Under the pieces are notes generated by a model. That model was not told the origin of the DNA and did no database searches. It was given only the letters and a program-made list of their open reading frames with translations. Positions 13,835-27,302 of a DNA stretch of 62,149 nucleotides are shown here, piece by piece. The stretch is from Alphaproteobacteria bacterium (GTDB lineage: Bacteria > Pseudomonadota > Alphaproteobacteria > Caulobacterales > Aquidulcibacteraceae), in assembly GCA_016124255.1 (NCBI GenBank), contig WGOB01000052.1:1-62149 (forward strand). Direction: 5' to 3'. Every line of letters starts with the position of its first letter. Position 1 is the first letter of the stretch. Both the position numbers and the translations under genes were made by a program.

Positions 13835-15021
13835 GCGCGCCGCGCCGCATAGGCCGCAACCAGCGCAGCGCACCCAAGCACGCCCGCGCCGATCCAGAAC
13901 GGCGCGGAGTGTCCGAGCTGATCAAACAGGAGCCCCGAGAACGCTGGTCCGATCACCCGCCCGAGCGCAGACGCGGATTGATTGAGCCCCATGACCAGCC
14001 CGCGCTCGTGCTCTCCCGCCTGCGCGCCCACCAGCGACGTCAGCGCCGGTGTGGCCGCGCCGCCGCCGATCGCAAGCAGCGCCAGCGCAGCGTAGGCGTG
14101 GCCGGTGGTCTGCGCCGCCGCCAGCGCCGCGAAGCCGCCGGTGAACAGCGCCAATCCGCCAACGAGCATCCGCCGCTCGCCAACCCGTTTCGCCAGCCAT
14201 CCGGCGCCGCCGCCCTGCAGACCGACCGTCATCAGCCCGAGCGCCGCGAACGCGAACCCCGTCTCGCGCGGCCCCCAGGCGAGCTGCGCGTTCGACCACA
14301 GCCCGAACGTCGTCTCCATCAGCGCCTGCGCCGCGATCATCATCAGCGTCACGCACACCAGCTGCGCGAGCGCCGGGCGCTTGAGCAGCAGGCTCATCCG
14401 CCCGTCGCGCGGCGCCCCCGCCGACCGCCGCGCGCCGGGGGGCAGCGTTTCGCGGAACAGCGCCGTCGCCGCGACCGCCGCGAGCATCGCAAACGCCGCC
14501 GCTGTGAGGCATACCCGCCGAAATCCCTCCGCATCCGGATGATCGCCCGCGATCAGCGCCGCCAGCGCGGGCCCGAAGATGAACCCGAGCGCGAACGACG
14601 CGCCCAGCAGGCCCATGTTGCGCGTGCGCGTCTGATCGTCCGCGAGATCGGTCGCGGCCGCGAACGCCGCCCCGACATTCCCCGCCATCAGACCCCCGAA
14701 CAGCCGCGCAAAACCCAGCGCCTCCACGTTCACCGCATAAGCGATCATCACGTAGGAGAGCCCGGCCCCGATCAGCCCGGCGATCAGCACCGGCTTGCGC
14801 CCGATGGAATCGGAGAGCCGCCCCCACGCCGGCGCCGCGATCAGCTGCCCGAACGAATAGGCCCCCATCGCGATGGTGGTTTCGGTGGCGGTGCCGCCGA
14901 GGTGCAGGGAGAGGAACGGAAAGATCGGGATGAAAATCCCGAACCCGATCATGCCTGTGAGCACGACCAGGAAAAGCGCCAGGAGCGATCCCCGCGCGGG
15001 CGCTTGCGCCGCCGCAGCCAT
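13831..15021 (-). CDS. MFS transporter, drug/tetracycline exporter type
   Basis: 396 residues with 12 predicted helices. After helix 2 the motif WGRLSDSIGRKPVL is the MFS motif A, and the second half contains a matching loop near AGWLAKRVGERRML. The arrangement is like TetA/TCR-type proton antiporters. Likely substrate is a drug or metabolite, unknown. The gene is convergent with the hydrolase and divergent from the crotonase gene (121 nt between the starts). Confidence 0.88.
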   Translation of the reverse strand: MAAAAQAPARGSLLALFLVVLTGMIGFGIFIPIFPFLSLHLGGTATETTIAMGAYSFGQLIAAPAWGRLSDSIGRKPVLIAGLIGAGLSYVMIAYAVNVEALGFARLFGGLMAGNVGAAFAAATDLADDQTRTRNMGLLGASFALGFIFGPALAALIAGDHPDAEGFRRVCLTAAAFAMLAAVAATALFRETLPPGARRSAGAPRDGRMSLLLKRPALAQLVCVTLMMIAAQALMETTFGLWSNAQLAWGPRETGFAFAALGLMTVGLQGGGAGWLAKRVGERRMLVGGLALFTGGFAALAAAQTTGHAYAALALLAIGGGAATPALTSLVGAQAGEHERGLVMGLNQSASALGRVIGPAFSGLLFDQLGHSAPFWIGAGVLGCAALVAAYAARRA

Positions 15022-21166: not shown

Positions 21167-22051
21167 CTAGCCTGCGAGCAGGTCCTTCATCGCCCGGCCC
21201 ATGGCGGCGGGGTGCGGCGCGATCGTGATCCCGGCCGCCTCCATCGCCGCGACCTTGGAGCCGGCGTCGCCTTTGCCGCCGGAGATGATCGCCCCGGCAT
21301 GACCCATGCGACGACCCGGCGGGGCCGTGCGCCCGGCAATGAACCCGACGACCGGCTTTTTCCGCCCGCGCTTGGCCTCATCAGCGAGGAATTGCGCCGC
21401 ATCCTCCTCCGCCGAGCCGCCGATCTCGCCGATCATGATGATCGCCCTGGTCTCATCGTCGGCTAGGAACAATTCGAGCATTGGAATGAACTCCGTGCCC
21501 TTCACCGGATCGCCGCCGATGCCGACCGCTGTCGACTGACCGAGCCCCTCCTGCGTCGTCTGGAACACCGCCTCATAGGTCAGCGTCCCTGAGCGCGAAA
21601 GCACGCCCACCGCGCCCTTGGTGAAGATGTTGCCCGGCATGATGCCGATCTTGCAGGCCCCCGGCGTCAGCACGCCCGGGCAGTTCGGCCCGATCAGCCG
21701 CGACGATGATCTGTCCAGCTTCGCTTTCACCCGCACCATGTCGAGCACGGGGATGCCTTCGGTGATGCACACGATCAGCGGGATCTCCGCGTCGATCGCC
21801 TCTTCGATCGCGGCCGCGGCGCCCGGCGGCGGCACATAGATCACCGTCGCGTCGGCGCCGGCCTTCTCTTTAGCCTCCGCCACGCTATTGAACACCGGCA
21901 GGCCGAGATGCGTCTGCCCGCCTTTGCCTGGCGACACCCCGCCCGTCATCCGCGTCCCGTACGCGATCGCCTGTTCGGAATGGAACGTGCCGTTCCGCCC
22001 GGTGAAGCCTTGGCAGATGACGCGGGTTTCAGCGTTGATCAGAATGGGCAT
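21167..22051 (-). CDS. sucD: Succinyl-CoA ligase (ADP-forming), alpha subunit
   Basis: 294 residues, the normal length. The CoA-binding Rossmann part begins with [17 protein letters not shown], and the phosphohistidine loop is [16 protein letters not shown] with the catalytic His in [24 protein letters not shown] is the family signature. With SucC it converts succinyl-CoA to succinate with substrate-level phosphorylation. It is on the same strand as sucC but separated from it by about 4 kb of accessory genes. Confidence 0.97.
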
Positions 22052-22232: not shown

Positions 22233-22943
22233 ATGCGGCGGCTCGTTCTACTTTTATTCGCAGTTTTGTTCGTCGGCTCGTGCACGACGACGAAGCACTT
22301 CATGTTCTCGGGCGACTTCCAACGCCCGCCCGCCAACTCGCTCGTCTTGATCGTGGAGCCCGATATTCAACTCGCCATTGTCATGGCGGGCGGCACGCAC
22401 GAGCCGCGAGAGGATTGGTCATCAGCCGCGCAGCGCAATGTTGCTGAAAGCCTATCTGCACATCTGAATGAACAAGGACACTCCACACAGAGATATAACG
22501 TCGACTCGGCAATGGCTGGACGGATCGGGCAGGTAGTCAGGCTCCACACAACAGTGGGTCAGTCTATTCTTGGGTTCAACTATGGCCTGTTCTCGCTGCC
22601 GACCAAAGAAGACAACTTCGACTGGACGCTGGGGCCCGGCGTACAGGAAATAGCGGCGCAGACAAATGCGCACTACGCGCTCTTTGTTTCCGGGAACGGC
22701 TCGTATGCCTCAGGGGGTCGGGTCGCCGTCGCGGTTGGCTTAGCGATACTCGGTGTTGGCGTGCCTCTTGGTGAACAACAAGTCTTCTGTTCCCTGGTCG
22801 ACCTGCAAACAGGCAACGTTTTGTGGTTCAATGTCGCTAATGCGGGTCCGAGCGCGGACATGCGCGACCCTGAAGGCGCTGCGTCGTTGGTCAGGACGCT
22901 GATGCGGAGCTCACCCCTGCAATCCGCGACTGCAAACGAATGA
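22233..22943 (+). CDS. Lipoprotein of unknown function, first gene of the M48 operon
   Basis: 236 residues from the ATG at 22233, which has GGGGAGG 5 nt upstream. The signal peptide ends in a lipobox VGSC with the lipidated Cys17. The mature part has a hydrophobic Gly/Ala segment (GGRVAVAVGLAILGVGVPLG, about residues 166-185) between two beta-rich stretches (ALFVSGNGSYASGG; FCSLVDLQTGNVLWFN). Function unknown. It overlaps the M48 gene by 4 nt. Its base composition is visibly less GC-rich (about half G+C) than neighbouring genes and it uses codons such as ACA, ATA and AAT that are rare nearby. Confidence 0.83.
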   Translation: MRRLVLLLFAVLFVGSCTTTKHFMFSGDFQRPPANSLVLIVEPDIQLAIVMAGGTHEPREDWSSAAQRNVAESLSAHLNEQGHSTQRYNVDSAMAGRIGQVVRLHTTVGQSILGFNYGLFSLPTKEDNFDWTLGPGVQEIAAQTNAHYALFVSGNGSYASGGRVAVAVGLAILGVGVPLGEQQVFCSLVDLQTGNVLWFNVANAGPSADMRDPEGAASLVRTLMRSSPLQSATANE

Positions 22944-24187
22944 AACGGCTGCCTGCTGCGCTCTGCCTGATCGCGGCGATGGTCTCAGCGCCGCCCGAAG
23001 CTGTTAGTCAGCCGGCCCCAATGCGCGAAAGGCCGGCTGCCGACACTGATGAAGGAGGTCTGTGGGGCTTGTTCGATCGAGCCGAGATTGCGGCCCGATC
23101 ATCTGGCGAATTGATTGATGCAGCAGCGCTGAACGAATACATTCGTGAAGTGACTTGTCGCGTAGCCAGCGATGTCTGCGGTGACATTCGCATCTACGTC
23201 ATGAACCGCCCATTCATCAACGCCACCATGGCGCCGAACGGATACGCGGAAGTCTGGTCTGGGTTGCTGCTCCGAGCGCAGAATGAGGCGGAACTGGCAT
23301 TCATTCTGGGTCACGAAGTCGCGCACTACGAACAGCGTCACTCTCTTGCTCGGCTACGCAGAGCACGAAACGCCTCCACGGCATCTCTCGTCTTGGGCGT
23401 CGGATTGGCGGTCGCTGGCTCGGGCGCCGCAGCGAACAATCCAGCAATGGCAAGCGACATTCTGGACCTGACCGGTCACTTGATTGACATCGTTTATCTC
23501 GGGGCCGTCGCGTACTACTTCGGGTTTTCGAGAGAAAACGAAGGCGACGCGGACGCAATTGGCGCGGAGCGAGCAATTGGGGCTGGTTACGACCCGTTCG
23601 CGGGCGCGAGACTATGGCAAAACCTGATTTCAGAGCGCGAAACGTCCGACTTCGAGCGCACACGCCGTCAGGAAGCCCGCGCCAGCATCTTCAACACCCA
23701 CCCCTTGACCAGCGATCGCGTCGCCGCGCTCGAAGCGCTCGCCCGCGCCGCCCCGCAGAGCGGCCAGACCGAACGCGCGCGCTATCGCGCCGCGATCCGC
23801 CCCCATCTTGATCCCTGGCTGCGCGACGATCTCCGTCGCCGCGATTACGGCCAGACCCTCTTCGTGATCGACCGCCTCGCCGAAGCCGGCGAAGATCTGG
23901 GCGTCCTCAACCATTATCGCGGCGAATCCTACAGGCTGCGCCGCGGCGACGGCGATCTCGGGCGCGCCCGCGCCGCCTACGAAGAAGCCATTCGCCACCC
24001 CGACGCCCCGCCTCTCGCCTGGCGACAACTGGGTGAGATTTACGAGCGCGAACGCCGGCCTGCCGACGCGGCCGCGCACCTGCGAACCTACTTGGAGAAA
24101 ATGCCTGGCGCGAGCGATCGCCTGCTCGTTGAGCGCCGCATGACGGCGCTCGAAACCCAGGCTGGGACGGGGAGCCAAGGTCCATGA
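22940..24187 (+). CDS. Periplasmic M48-family metalloprotease
   Basis: 415 residues with a signal peptide (about 1-24). The zinc motif is HEVAH (His125, Glu126, His129), with the third-ligand region ENEGDADAIG at about 199-208. This resembles BepA/LoiP-type periplasmic proteases that monitor outer membrane assembly. The C-terminal 165 residues contain TPR-like helices (near RRGDGDLGRARAAYEEAIRH and LGEIYERERRPADAAAHLRT). Base composition changes abruptly within the gene: up to about 23680 it is low-GC like the preceding lipoprotein gene; afterwards it is as GC-rich as the rest of the window. Overlaps both neighbours by 4 nt (ATGA). Confidence 0.9.
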   Translation: MKRLPAALCLIAAMVSAPPEAVSQPAPMRERPAADTDEGGLWGLFDRAEIAARSSGELIDAAALNEYIREVTCRVASDVCGDIRIYVMNRPFINATMAPNGYAEVWSGLLLRAQNEAELAFILGHEVAHYEQRHSLARLRRARNASTASLVLGVGLAVAGSGAAANNPAMASDILDLTGHLIDIVYLGAVAYYFGFSRENEGDADAIGAERAIGAGYDPFAGARLWQNLISERETSDFERTRRQEARASIFNTHPLTSDRVAALEALARAAPQSGQTERARYRAAIRPHLDPWLRDDLRRRDYGQTLFVIDRLAEAGEDLGVLNHYRGESYRLRRGDGDLGRARAAYEEAIRHPDAPPLAWRQLGEIYERERRPADAAAHLRTYLEKMPGASDRLLVERRMTALETQAGTGSQGP

Positions 24188-24783: not shown

Positions 24784-25413
24784 TTATTCCGCGGGCGCCG
24801 TCCCTGTCGCCGCCGCGCCGGTCGGCGTGGCCACAATGCTGAGGATCATGCCGGCGACGGAATCCGGCGCGGCGTTTTCCTGCCGCTGCAGATACATGTG
24901 CCGGAACACAGCCACCCCCGGCATCGACGGCGGATTGGTCCAGAGTTGCGTCACGAACCGGTTCGGCTGCTCACGCCAATCGTCCGCCGCCGTGCCCACC
25001 CACTCGCGCACCAGCGCGCCGGGCACGGTATGCGGCGCATCGAACGCGAAGAACGAACACCCGATGACGGTCTGCCCGCTATTGTCGTAGTGCGAGAGCA
25101 CGAGATAGGCCCGCTCCTCGTCCACGAGCGGCCGGGAGAACAACCGGATCGCCTGTATTGTCATGCCCTGCGCGGCATAGCTGCGCGCCTGCGTCATGAC
25201 CCGCGGCAATTCCGGGCGCGCGCTCTCCGCCACGCTGGTCCACCCCTGCGCCTGCGCCGCCGCCTCCAACGTCGCGAAGCTCTGGCGCGCATCGATGCAG
25301 ACGTCCTGGAAGGCGGTGAACCGCGGCTCCGGCGCCGGCGCTTCTTCCGCCTCCTGCGCCGCCGCCGCGCCGGCGCACAGCACGGCCGCCAAACCCGCCC
25401 GCCAAGTTCTCAC
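24784..25413 (-). CDS. Secreted protein of unknown function
   Basis: 209 residues from the GTG at 25413, preceded by GGGAGCGAG; the signal peptide (WRAGLAAVLCAGAAAAQEA) follows directly, which fixes this start against a much longer open frame reaching 25704. The mature part has a Glu/Pro-rich start and then a domain with two Cys (DVCIDARQSF; GCSFFAFDAP) that could form a disulfide. No family recognised with confidence. It converges with the broken lipoprotein gene (adjacent stops) and is divergent from the UrcA gene, with the 11-bp repeat array in between. Confidence 0.75.
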   Translation of the reverse strand: MRTWRAGLAAVLCAGAAAAQEAEEAPAPEPRFTAFQDVCIDARQSFATLEAAAQAQGWTSVAESARPELPRVMTQARSYAAQGMTIQAIRLFSRPLVDEERAYLVLSHYDNSGQTVIGCSFFAFDAPHTVPGALVREWVGTAADDWREQPNRFVTQLWTNPPSMPGVAVFRHMYLQRQENAAPDSVAGMILSIVATPTGAAATGTAPAE

Positions 25414-25570
25414 GACCTCGCTCCCGTCCTGTCTTGCGTCGCCGCTGCCCAAAGAGCGGCTGCGCGCCTCTGGCGCAAGCCCGCGCGGCGCCAGGGCGCT
25501 CATGGGCCCGCCGCCACAGCCCCTTGTATTTACGCCGCCATTCAAGCCAGCGCGGGCGGCGTCCCATTTT

Positions 25571-25636
25571 TGACGTTTACATGACAGTTCAATCGCTGTT
25601 GTATGACGGTTCAATGACGGTTCTGAGACGGTCATC
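25571..25636 (-). promoter_or_regulatory. Six 11-bp phased direct repeats, Pho-box-like operator array
   Basis: Units start at 25571, 25582, 25593, 25604, 25615 and 25626 with exact 11-bp spacing, plus-strand consensus TGACGGTTCAA (the third unit is the weakest). On the minus strand this reads as CTGTCAT / CCGTCAT hexamer-like blocks separated by 4 bp, the geometry of PhoB boxes and of other OmpR-family response regulators. The array lies in the 244-nt divergent region, 157 nt upstream of the minus-strand secreted protein and only 22 nt before the UrcA ATG. Its orientation fits activation toward the minus strand, or repression of the UrcA gene. Confidence 0.6.
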
Positions 25637-25657
25637 AAGGACGAACGGGAGGAAGGC

Positions 25658-25981
25658 ATGAAGACGGCTGCGCTGGCGGTGGGATTGGCTGTCATTCTGT
25701 CCACGGCGGCGTTCGCCGACCCCTGGGTCGCGCCGAACGAGCGGCACGCGGTCCCCGTGACCTACGAGGACCTGGACCTCTCCCGCGCCGATGACGCCGC
25801 CGCCTTGGTCGAACGCCTGCACTCCGCCACACAGCGCGCCTGCGCGCTGCGCGAACTGGCCCACCAGGGCCCCGCCGCGCGCCGCGCCGTCCGCGCCTGC
25901 CGCGATGACGCGCTCCAGGTCGCCATCGAGCGCATCAACGAGCCGGAAGTGACGCGCGTCTACCAGTCCGCCCGCCGCTGA
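25658..25981 (+). CDS. UrcA family protein
   Basis: 107 residues: a signal peptide (about 1-20, ending AAFADP), then the UrcA core VPVTYEDLDLSRADDAAALVERLHSATQRAC and a second Cys in VRACRDDA, probably a disulfide pair. UrcA proteins are small exported proteins common in Caulobacterales and Sphingomonadales with unknown function. The ribosome binding site is GGGAGGAAGG. The upstream repeat array reaches almost to it, so binding there could block transcription or translation. Confidence 0.87.
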   Translation: MKTAALAVGLAVILSTAAFADPWVAPNERHAVPVTYEDLDLSRADDAAALVERLHSATQRACALRELAHQGPAARRAVRACRDDALQVAIERINEPEVTRVYQSARR

Positions 25982-26041: not shown

Positions 26042-27235
26042 CTAGCGCTTCACCGCCGCCACGATCTTGCGCGCGGCGTCTTCCAGATCGTCGGCGTTGA
26101 TCACATTGAGCCCGCTCTCGGCGATGATCCTCTTGCCCTCGCCGACATTGGTGCCTTCCAGGCGCACGACCAGCGGAACCTTCAGCCCAACTTCCTTCAC
26201 CGCCGCCACGACGCCCGCGGCGAGCACGTCGCACTTCATGATCCCGCCGAAGATGTTGATCAGGATGCCCTTCACCTTCGGATCGGCGGTGATGATCTTG
26301 AACGCCGCCGACACCTTCGCCTGATCGGCGCCGCCGCCGACATCGAGGAAGTTCGCCGGCTCCGCCCCGAACAGCTTGATGATGTCCATCGTCGCCATCG
26401 CGAGCCCGGCGCCGTTGACCATGCAGCCGATGTCGCCGTCGAGCGCGATGTAGGCGAGATCGTATTTCGACGCCTCGATCTCCTTGGGATCCTCTTCGCC
26501 GAGATCGCGCAGCTTCTCCCATTCCGGATGCCGGAACTCGGCGTTCGAATCGAGGCTCACCTTGGCGTCGAGACACACGAGCTTGCCGTCGCCCGTCACC
26601 ATCAAGGGATTGATCTCAAGCAGGCTCATGTCGCTCTTCGTGAACGCTTCATAGAGCGTGCCGAGCAGGCGCGCGCATTGCTGCGCCAGATCGCCGTCGA
26701 GCTTGAGGGCCGCCGCGACCTTCGCCGCGTCCGCATCGGTGACGCCCGTCGCCGGATCGATCGCGACGGTCGTGATCCGCTCCGGCGTGTCGTGCGCCAC
26801 CTCTTCGATGTTCATCCCGCCCGCATCGGACGCGACGAACGCGACGCGCCCGGCTTCGCGATCCACCAGCGCGGAGAGATAGAGTTCGCGCGCGATATCG
26901 GCGCCCTCTTCGATATAAAGCCGCTTCACCACCCGCCCGGCCTCGCCGGTCTGCAGCGTCACCAGAGTGCGCCCGAGCATCTGTTCGGCGAACACGCCAA
27001 CGTCTTCCGGCGCCTTGGCGATCCGCACCCCGCCCTTCTCGCCGGCTTGCGGCTCCTTGAATTTGCCTTTGCCGCGCCCGCCGGCATGGATCTGCGCCTT
27101 CACCACCCAGACCGACCCGCCGAGCTTCGCCGCGGCGTCGACCGCTTCCTCGGCTGTGAACGCCGCAAAGCCGCGCGGGGTGGGCGCGCCAAAGGCGCGC
27201 AGGATTTCCTTGGCTTGGTGTTCGTGAACGTTCAT
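26042..27235 (-). CDS. sucC: Succinyl-CoA ligase (ADP-forming), beta subunit
   Basis: 397 residues from the ATG at 27235 ([12 protein letters not shown], the standard SucC start, GAGGG upstream); a 29-residue upstream extension is rejected. The ATP-grasp domain has [14 protein letters not shown] and LEINPLMV, and the C-terminal part [15 protein letters not shown] with [13 protein letters not shown] forms the CoA-ligase domain. It pairs with SucD in the TCA cycle. It lies between an MFS gene and UrcA, about 4 kb from sucD and 7.8 kb from mdh, although the strand and order match the ancestral operon. Confidence 0.97.
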
Positions 27236-27302
27236 GCGGGCCCTCGACGATCCGCCTTGTGTATGGCCGGGCGGATTGGACCGCGCAACCGGGCCCCGCG
27301 CG

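Follow-up and report, generated by a model that had tools for sequence, protein, structure and literature searches.

The window analysed here is a stretch of 62,149 nucleotides from an alphaproteobacterium of the Aquidulcibacteraceae (contig WGOB01000052.1; its genome is G000 below). At the locus of interest, the genes sucD and sucC bracket a small gene of the urcA family, and upstream of that gene lies a run of short direct repeats phased at 11 bp. The features of the locus are as follows.

21167–22051: sucD
22940–24187: gene for an M48-family peptidase with TPR-like repeats
24784–25413, minus strand: divergent gene whose product is unclassified and probably secreted, with an uncertain GTG start (sequence)
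25570–25635, plus strand: 11-bp phased array of PHO-box-type half-sites, ATGACRG-N4 (periodicity, matrix scan, conservation)
25570–25580: array unit 1, TTGACGTTTAC
25581–25591: array unit 2, ATGACAGTTCA
25592–25602: array unit 3, ATCGCTGTTGT
25603–25613: array unit 4, ATGACGGTTCA
25614–25624: array unit 5, ATGACGGTTCT
25625–25635: array unit 6, GAGACGGTCAT
25576–25581, plus strand: candidate -35 of urcA, TTTACA, mostly in the spacer before unit 2 (conservation)
25581–25587, plus strand: best half-site, ATGACAG, which reads CTGTCAT on the minus strand (sequence)
25599–25604, plus strand: candidate -10 of urcA, TTGTAT, 17 bp from the -35 (conservation)
25603–25620, plus strand: best two-unit box, ATGACGGTTCAATGACGG (matrix and genome pattern scan)
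25647–25656, plus strand: ribosome-binding site, GGGAGGAAGG (sequence)
25658–25981, plus strand: urcA-family gene of 107 aa, with an N-terminus that looks by eye like a signal peptide and two conserved Cys (TIGR04433, alignment of seven homologues)
26042–27241, minus strand: sucC, downstream of urcA (Pfam ATP-grasp_2/Ligase_CoA)

The urcA product scores 49.8 bits against TIGR04433, for which the cut-off is 25, and the homologues in G010, G011, G047 and G052 also lie above that cut-off. Confidence in the predicted structure was modest (mean pLDDT, 74.1), and the fold is uninformative on function because the sole match in a structural search had E = 7. As in G000, urcA stands between sucD and sucC in G010, G047, G052 and G024; neither suc gene was found in the stretches examined for G011, G055 and G028. 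In G010 and G047 the urcA locus likewise has a homologue of the M48-family peptidase gene beside it. The divergently encoded protein to the left of the array matched no Pfam family and no NCBIfam model above cut-off, and among eight loci tested a homologue of its gene occurs only in that of G010 (L078).

The periodicity of the array is clearly borne out. As the preliminary description had claimed, an 11-bp period runs over 66 bp, with 35 of 55 positions identical at a lag of 11, the maximum over the whole window; within the array, identity is 12–28% at lags of 5–21 other than 11 and 61% at lag 22. None of 2000 dinucleotide shuffles of 25414–25657 attained 35 such identities (the top value was 30), and TRF reported a period of 11 at 25581–25623 and again at 25605–25632. 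The minus-strand blocks that had been described were found as well, namely one CTGTCAT and two CCGTCAT. The period-11 array is therefore real, but the earlier count of six units was generous. The strong half-sites number three (ATGACAG, ATGACGG and ATGACGG); TTGACGT is a partial one, and ATCGCTG and GAGACGG are poor or degenerate. Counted by eye, units 1 to 6 match ATGACAG at 4, 7, 4, 6, 6 and 4 of 7 positions, with the TGAC core intact in unit 1 and broken in unit 3.

The array also has the geometry of a PHO box, as had been proposed, in that 7-bp direct repeats resembling CTGTCAT are separated by 4-bp spacers. A half-site matrix was built from 14 transporter sites (10 of pstC, two of pstS and two of pitA), none of them from the window's genus. 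With this matrix the array outscores everything else in the window: its two-unit scores are 14.1 and 12.2 bits (next unrelated place, 4.8), and its three-unit score is 11.8 (next, 4.5). The array's scores were attained by none of 1000 shuffles for three units, none of 1000 for five and one of 1000 for two. The exact sequence pattern ATGACRG-N4-ATGACRG has its sole occurrence in the 3.34-Mb genome at 25603–25620.

The same genome encodes PhoB (TIGR02154, 343 bits). Its PstB and PstS were also confirmed against NCBIfam, its PhoU lies above the model cut-off, and the PhoR-like kinase of the operon has TIGR02966 as its best model, at 249 bits and below the cut-off of 334. Reading the array as a Pho box had carried the expectation of like sites upstream of pstS or phoB, and such sites are present. 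A two-unit box of 11.7 bits lies before pstS on contig 30 (L111:4475), where the next place in the 9-kb stretch scores 6.8, and another of 11.3 bits lies on contig 47 (L110:8938) between the phoR-like gene and pstB-phoU-phoB, where the next place in the 14-kb stretch scores 1.8. Both are weaker than the array, and in both the CTGTCAT-like blocks point toward the gene. No box accompanies the second PstS-like domain gene (L112, contig 50); nothing in its 9-kb stretch scores above 3.6 bits. Because of its rank with the pst/pit matrix, the genome's own boxes and the presence of PhoB, the array is a site that PhoB would be expected to bind. The letters thus read support a PHO-box-type operator at 25570–25635, and we consider it quite probable that PhoB is the binder.

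The pst system of this genome is split, with pstS-pstC-pstA on contig 30 and the phoR-like kinase gene, pstB, phoU and phoB on contig 47; a box accompanies each half, and pstC and pstA were identified by eye. Another two-unit PHO-like site, TAGACGGTTCAATGACAG, occurs at 13902–13919 of contig C37 (L072:3903), shortly before a gene starting MSVWTDENVALLRKLW, a start that we take to resemble that of the cell-cycle regulator GcrA.

Arrays of this kind are not confined to the window. A three-unit pattern was built from the array and its homologous arrays and, with one mismatch allowed, was run over 60 genomes of the family. It matched in 19 of them, and the backwards-read control matched in none; the window's own array was missed because its third unit is degenerate. 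The matches define 29 loci, of which 15 lie before transporter genes (pstC in 11, pstS in two and pitA in two), eight (five arrays) before urcA, two before a gene for a small exported protein, two before an acid phosphatase gene and two elsewhere. In all 15 of the pst/pit arrays CTGTCAT points toward the gene. Eight of the 15 transporter loci were tested with HMMs, the others being assigned by near-identical protein starts, and the urcA genes so tested were those of G015, G047, G052 and G011 (L090, L128, L129 and L126).

At the PitA-like transporter genes of G017 and G018 (L102 and L092), the three-unit box stands near the start with CTGTCAT toward the gene; NF033774 is the best model and scores under its cut-off, L102 having been tested and L092 assigned by likeness. 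The small exported protein of G003 and G006 (L081 and L101) is UrcA-like by eye, with several TGAC repeats before its gene in the pst-type sense, and the L081 protein matched no NCBIfam family.

The gene that the array serves can be approached through its relatives. Searches gave 42 urcA-like matches in 26 of the 60 family genomes, and the 30 with a locus were compared upstream. Arrays precede all eight of the best urcA homologues (G000, G010, G024, G055, G052, G028, G011 and G047), weakly so in G028, which has two good units only. All eight are reversed relative to urcA, and their best three units end 46–74 bp before the start codon. The other 22 urcA-like genes have no array, with a three-unit score never above 1.9; one of them (L054, in G026) scores 13.4 with two units, in the opposite sense, and 1.9 with three. 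A reversed array also lies roughly 110 bp ahead of the start of a urcA gene of G015 that falls outside the 42 matches (27 bits; cut-off, 25). In G010, which belongs to the same genus, the array occupies the orthologous position, and on inspection nothing else between the two genes is as well preserved. A random null for the upstream comparison was set aside, as it had been drawn from array-holding loci and its upper quantiles were inflated. A wider pattern scan returned nine stretches, four of them the urcA loci of G055, G047, G024 and G052 and five in unrelated bacteria, where about four would be expected by chance on our own estimate.

The left neighbour, by comparison, is not constant. It is the same secreted protein gene in G000 and G010, sucD in G047, a codirectional gene in G052 and other divergent genes in G024 and G011, presumably glyoxalase-like and oxygenase-like, respectively. 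Since urcA is the constant partner across relatives and the left neighbour varies, the array would belong with urcA, which is most likely its target. The earlier suggestion that the secreted protein is the regulated gene is not supported by this comparison, in which CTGTCAT points away from urcA, and that gene is disfavoured as the main target. No leftward -10 was seen by eye in G024, G052 or G011.

Interleaved with the array is a second conserved element. TTTAC is kept in seven of eight homologues; among seven representatives, TTTAC[AG] occurs in six and TTNTAT, 17 bp on, also in six, with G028 as the exception for both. G010 keeps TTTACG but has TTAGAT for the -10. The conserved letters sit in the spacers before units 2 and 4, and the other spacers vary. 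When spacers were permuted, in a test chosen after the alignment had been viewed and based on the seven representatives with the near copy G010 left out, the conservation was equalled by 1 of 16384 permutations for TTTAC and by 3 of 2187 for TTNTAT. A generic sigma-70 scan of the region found no promoter; that scan requires an A as the second letter of the -10, which the candidate, a weak one, lacks. Inspection by eye of six urcA loci found no promoter downstream of the array. On its conservation, TTTACR-N17-TTNTAT is likely the core promoter of urcA.

The mechanism that we infer, in its promoter, its binder and its sign alike, is that of an OmpR-family operator, most likely for PhoB, that is built into the urcA core promoter and represses urcA in low phosphate; taken as a whole, this reading seems to us plausible while falling just short of probable. 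With ample phosphate, RNA polymerase would use TTTACA-N17-TTGTAT, and urcA would be made. In low phosphate, phosphorylated PhoB would spread head to tail over the 11-bp half-sites along one face of the DNA. The half-sites so bound would be found both in the gap from -35 to -10 and outside it, in an orientation opposite to that at pst genes, and the row of PhoB would shut polymerase out and turn urcA off. Repression is favoured because the regulator's half-sites overlie the presumed core promoter, and it is more likely than activation; sites of CenR at genes predicted to be repressed and the PHO box of orfA-pit in Sinorhizobium meliloti, both described below, are precedents.

The best surviving alternative is that PhoB activates urcA, or urcA together with the divergent gene, in low phosphate as it would at pst genes, and we regard this as rather unlikely. 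Half-sites and spacing equal those at pst genes, and the pst-type orientation holds for the left gene, a neighbour that nevertheless varies among relatives. PhoB-activated genes would have CTGTCAT pointing toward the gene and upstream of the -10, as in 15 of 15 pst/pit arrays, whereas the arrays of urcA are reversed in 8 of 8. Moreover, the half-sites cover the candidate -35 and -10, and the gap from array to start codon is just 22 bp, which leaves no room for a usual promoter 3′ of the array. The step from orientation to repression is weakened by two acid phosphatase genes (PF03767; L096:1501-1526 in G030 and L097:1501-1526 in G033), which also have reversed three-unit arrays near their start codons, at 31 and 29 bp, respectively. 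These arrays end in TTGACA, with a possible -10 beyond by eye, and since phosphatase genes are expected to be activated, a reversed array need not mean repression. Excerpts of the literature describe PhoB in general as a positive regulator (PMC3131613) and also as activating or repressing according to the position of its site (PMC10294691). A box close to the start is likewise no proof of repression, as excerpts of one paper suggest that rosR, whose PHO boxes stand near the start codon, is stimulated by E. coli PhoB (PMC3131613).

Another OmpR-family regulator, above all CenR of the envelope stress response, could conceivably bind the array in place of PhoB, and this is somewhat less likely again. 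The CenR motif TGA-N8-TGA fits the array and shares its period of 11 bp, and UrcA is probably an exported protein. According to excerpts of one study, 28 of 31 CenR sites lie upstream of the -35 and are codirectional with transcription, and the other three, at genes for which repression is predicted, are placed between the -35 and the start site (PMC9275681). The codirectional sense is also that of the urcA arrays, provided that the CenR motif is written in gene direction. Scores run the other way, however. The best pair in 8 of 8 urcA arrays is higher with the pst/pit matrix (13.5–23.5) than with a CenR matrix made from the 31 published sites (5.7–13.2), and 20 of 27 single unit pairs also score better with the Pho matrix, the two matrices being not mutually calibrated. 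In addition, A precedes TGAC as a rule in the arrays, whereas G or T does so in CenR sites. Upstream of tolQ, a CenR target elsewhere, no pair as good as those of the urcA arrays occurs within 350 bp at 30 family loci, where the two-unit Pho score peaks at 12.7 and TGA-N8-TGA occurs exactly in 2 of the 30. This test carries little weight, as it presupposes that CenR controls tolQ in this family too.

The remaining explanations are all very improbable. The alphaproteobacterial LexA SOS box is GTTC-N7-GTTC, which also has a period of 11, and one copy lies at 25609–25623 with a degenerate chain to its left; an SOS operator was rejected, as GTTC-N7-GTTC is not conserved among the urcA homologues and is lost in G024, G055, G052, G011 and G047, where the TGAC blocks persist. 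UzcR is an OmpR-family regulator, and a UzcR or ChvI site, as for the metal-responsive urcA of Caulobacter, would suit a downstream gene of the UrcA family. It was rejected because the published motifs, given in excerpts as CATTAC-N6-TTAA for the UzcR half-sites and TTGC-N3-GCAA for ChvI (PMC9731502), are by eye absent from the array. A chance repeat of no function, in whose favour stand the poor half-sites 3 and 6, is the least credible of all and is ruled out at the sequence level by the shuffles and by the conservation of the array inside an otherwise poorly conserved intergenic stretch.

A similar layout also occurs in another family of the order. A pattern drawn from the urcA arrays had matches in 13 of 398 genomes, and a control pattern gave three matches. 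Seven of the 13 lie within the family and confirm nothing, since the pattern was drawn from those arrays; of the six others, G375 and G260, with matches before other genes, were left out of the comparison. In four genomes of the other family, ATGAC repeats are woven into promoter-like elements before a gene for an exported protein of 117–131 aa, the elements reading TTGACA-N17-[CG]TATAT in three genomes and a looser TTAACA-N17-TTATAT in one. The exported-looking protein of these loci (L133–L136, in G142, G214, G162 and G091) is unrelated to the urcA product and, for the one tested (L133), matched no Pfam or NCBIfam family. The divergent neighbour there encodes a protein of 316–327 aa, which at L134 resembles MotA/ExbB weakly, scoring under the cut-off.

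Considering these layouts together, it is possible, though we would lean against it, that the urcA clade has been rewired from metal or envelope two-component control to PhoB through a reversed, multi-unit, promoter-woven operator, such that phosphate starvation switches off this gene for a small exported protein. If so, a "promoter-embedded Pho silencer" would be a recurring device, the same layout having evolved in a second family of the order, and the UrcA protein would be linked to phosphate. A conserved operator whose layout should silence would also offer a clean way of learning how the sign of PhoB action depends on where its sites lie and which way they face. No paper dealing with UrcA and PhoB together was found in the open-access literature, most subscription papers lying outside the search, and the available main-text parts of the Caulobacter PhoB-regulon paper do not name UrcA (PMC11208175).

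Compared with known systems, the array would be a PHO-box-type operator of a known sort with an unusual layout. It resembles the PHO box of PhoB (CTGTCAT-N4-CTGTCAT) in its 7-bp half-sites, its 11-bp direct-repeat period and its T-leaning spacers, and its half-site is one found before pst genes in the same bacterial family; it differs in having several units rather than one pair, in being reversed relative to the downstream gene and in overlying the probable core promoter. Caulobacter crescentus urcA, as described in excerpts of one paper, likewise places a gene of the UrcA family behind an OmpR-family operator, but the operator letters are different, and the controlling system, UzcRS, activates the gene in response to U, Zn and Cu (PMC8963506). 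The CenR-repressed promoters of Rhodobacter sphaeroides, in the portions of that study available, also have an OmpR-family direct-repeat operator between the -35 and the start site, and differ in the letters of half-site and spacer and in having a single pair (PMC9275681). Finally, the orfA-pit genes of Sinorhizobium meliloti, another gene system and one likened here by description, are repressed on Pi starvation and have a PHO box shortly before the point where translation begins, according to excerpts of PMC3131613, and so share with the proposed urcA operator both the position just before the start codon and the lowering of expression when phosphate is scarce.
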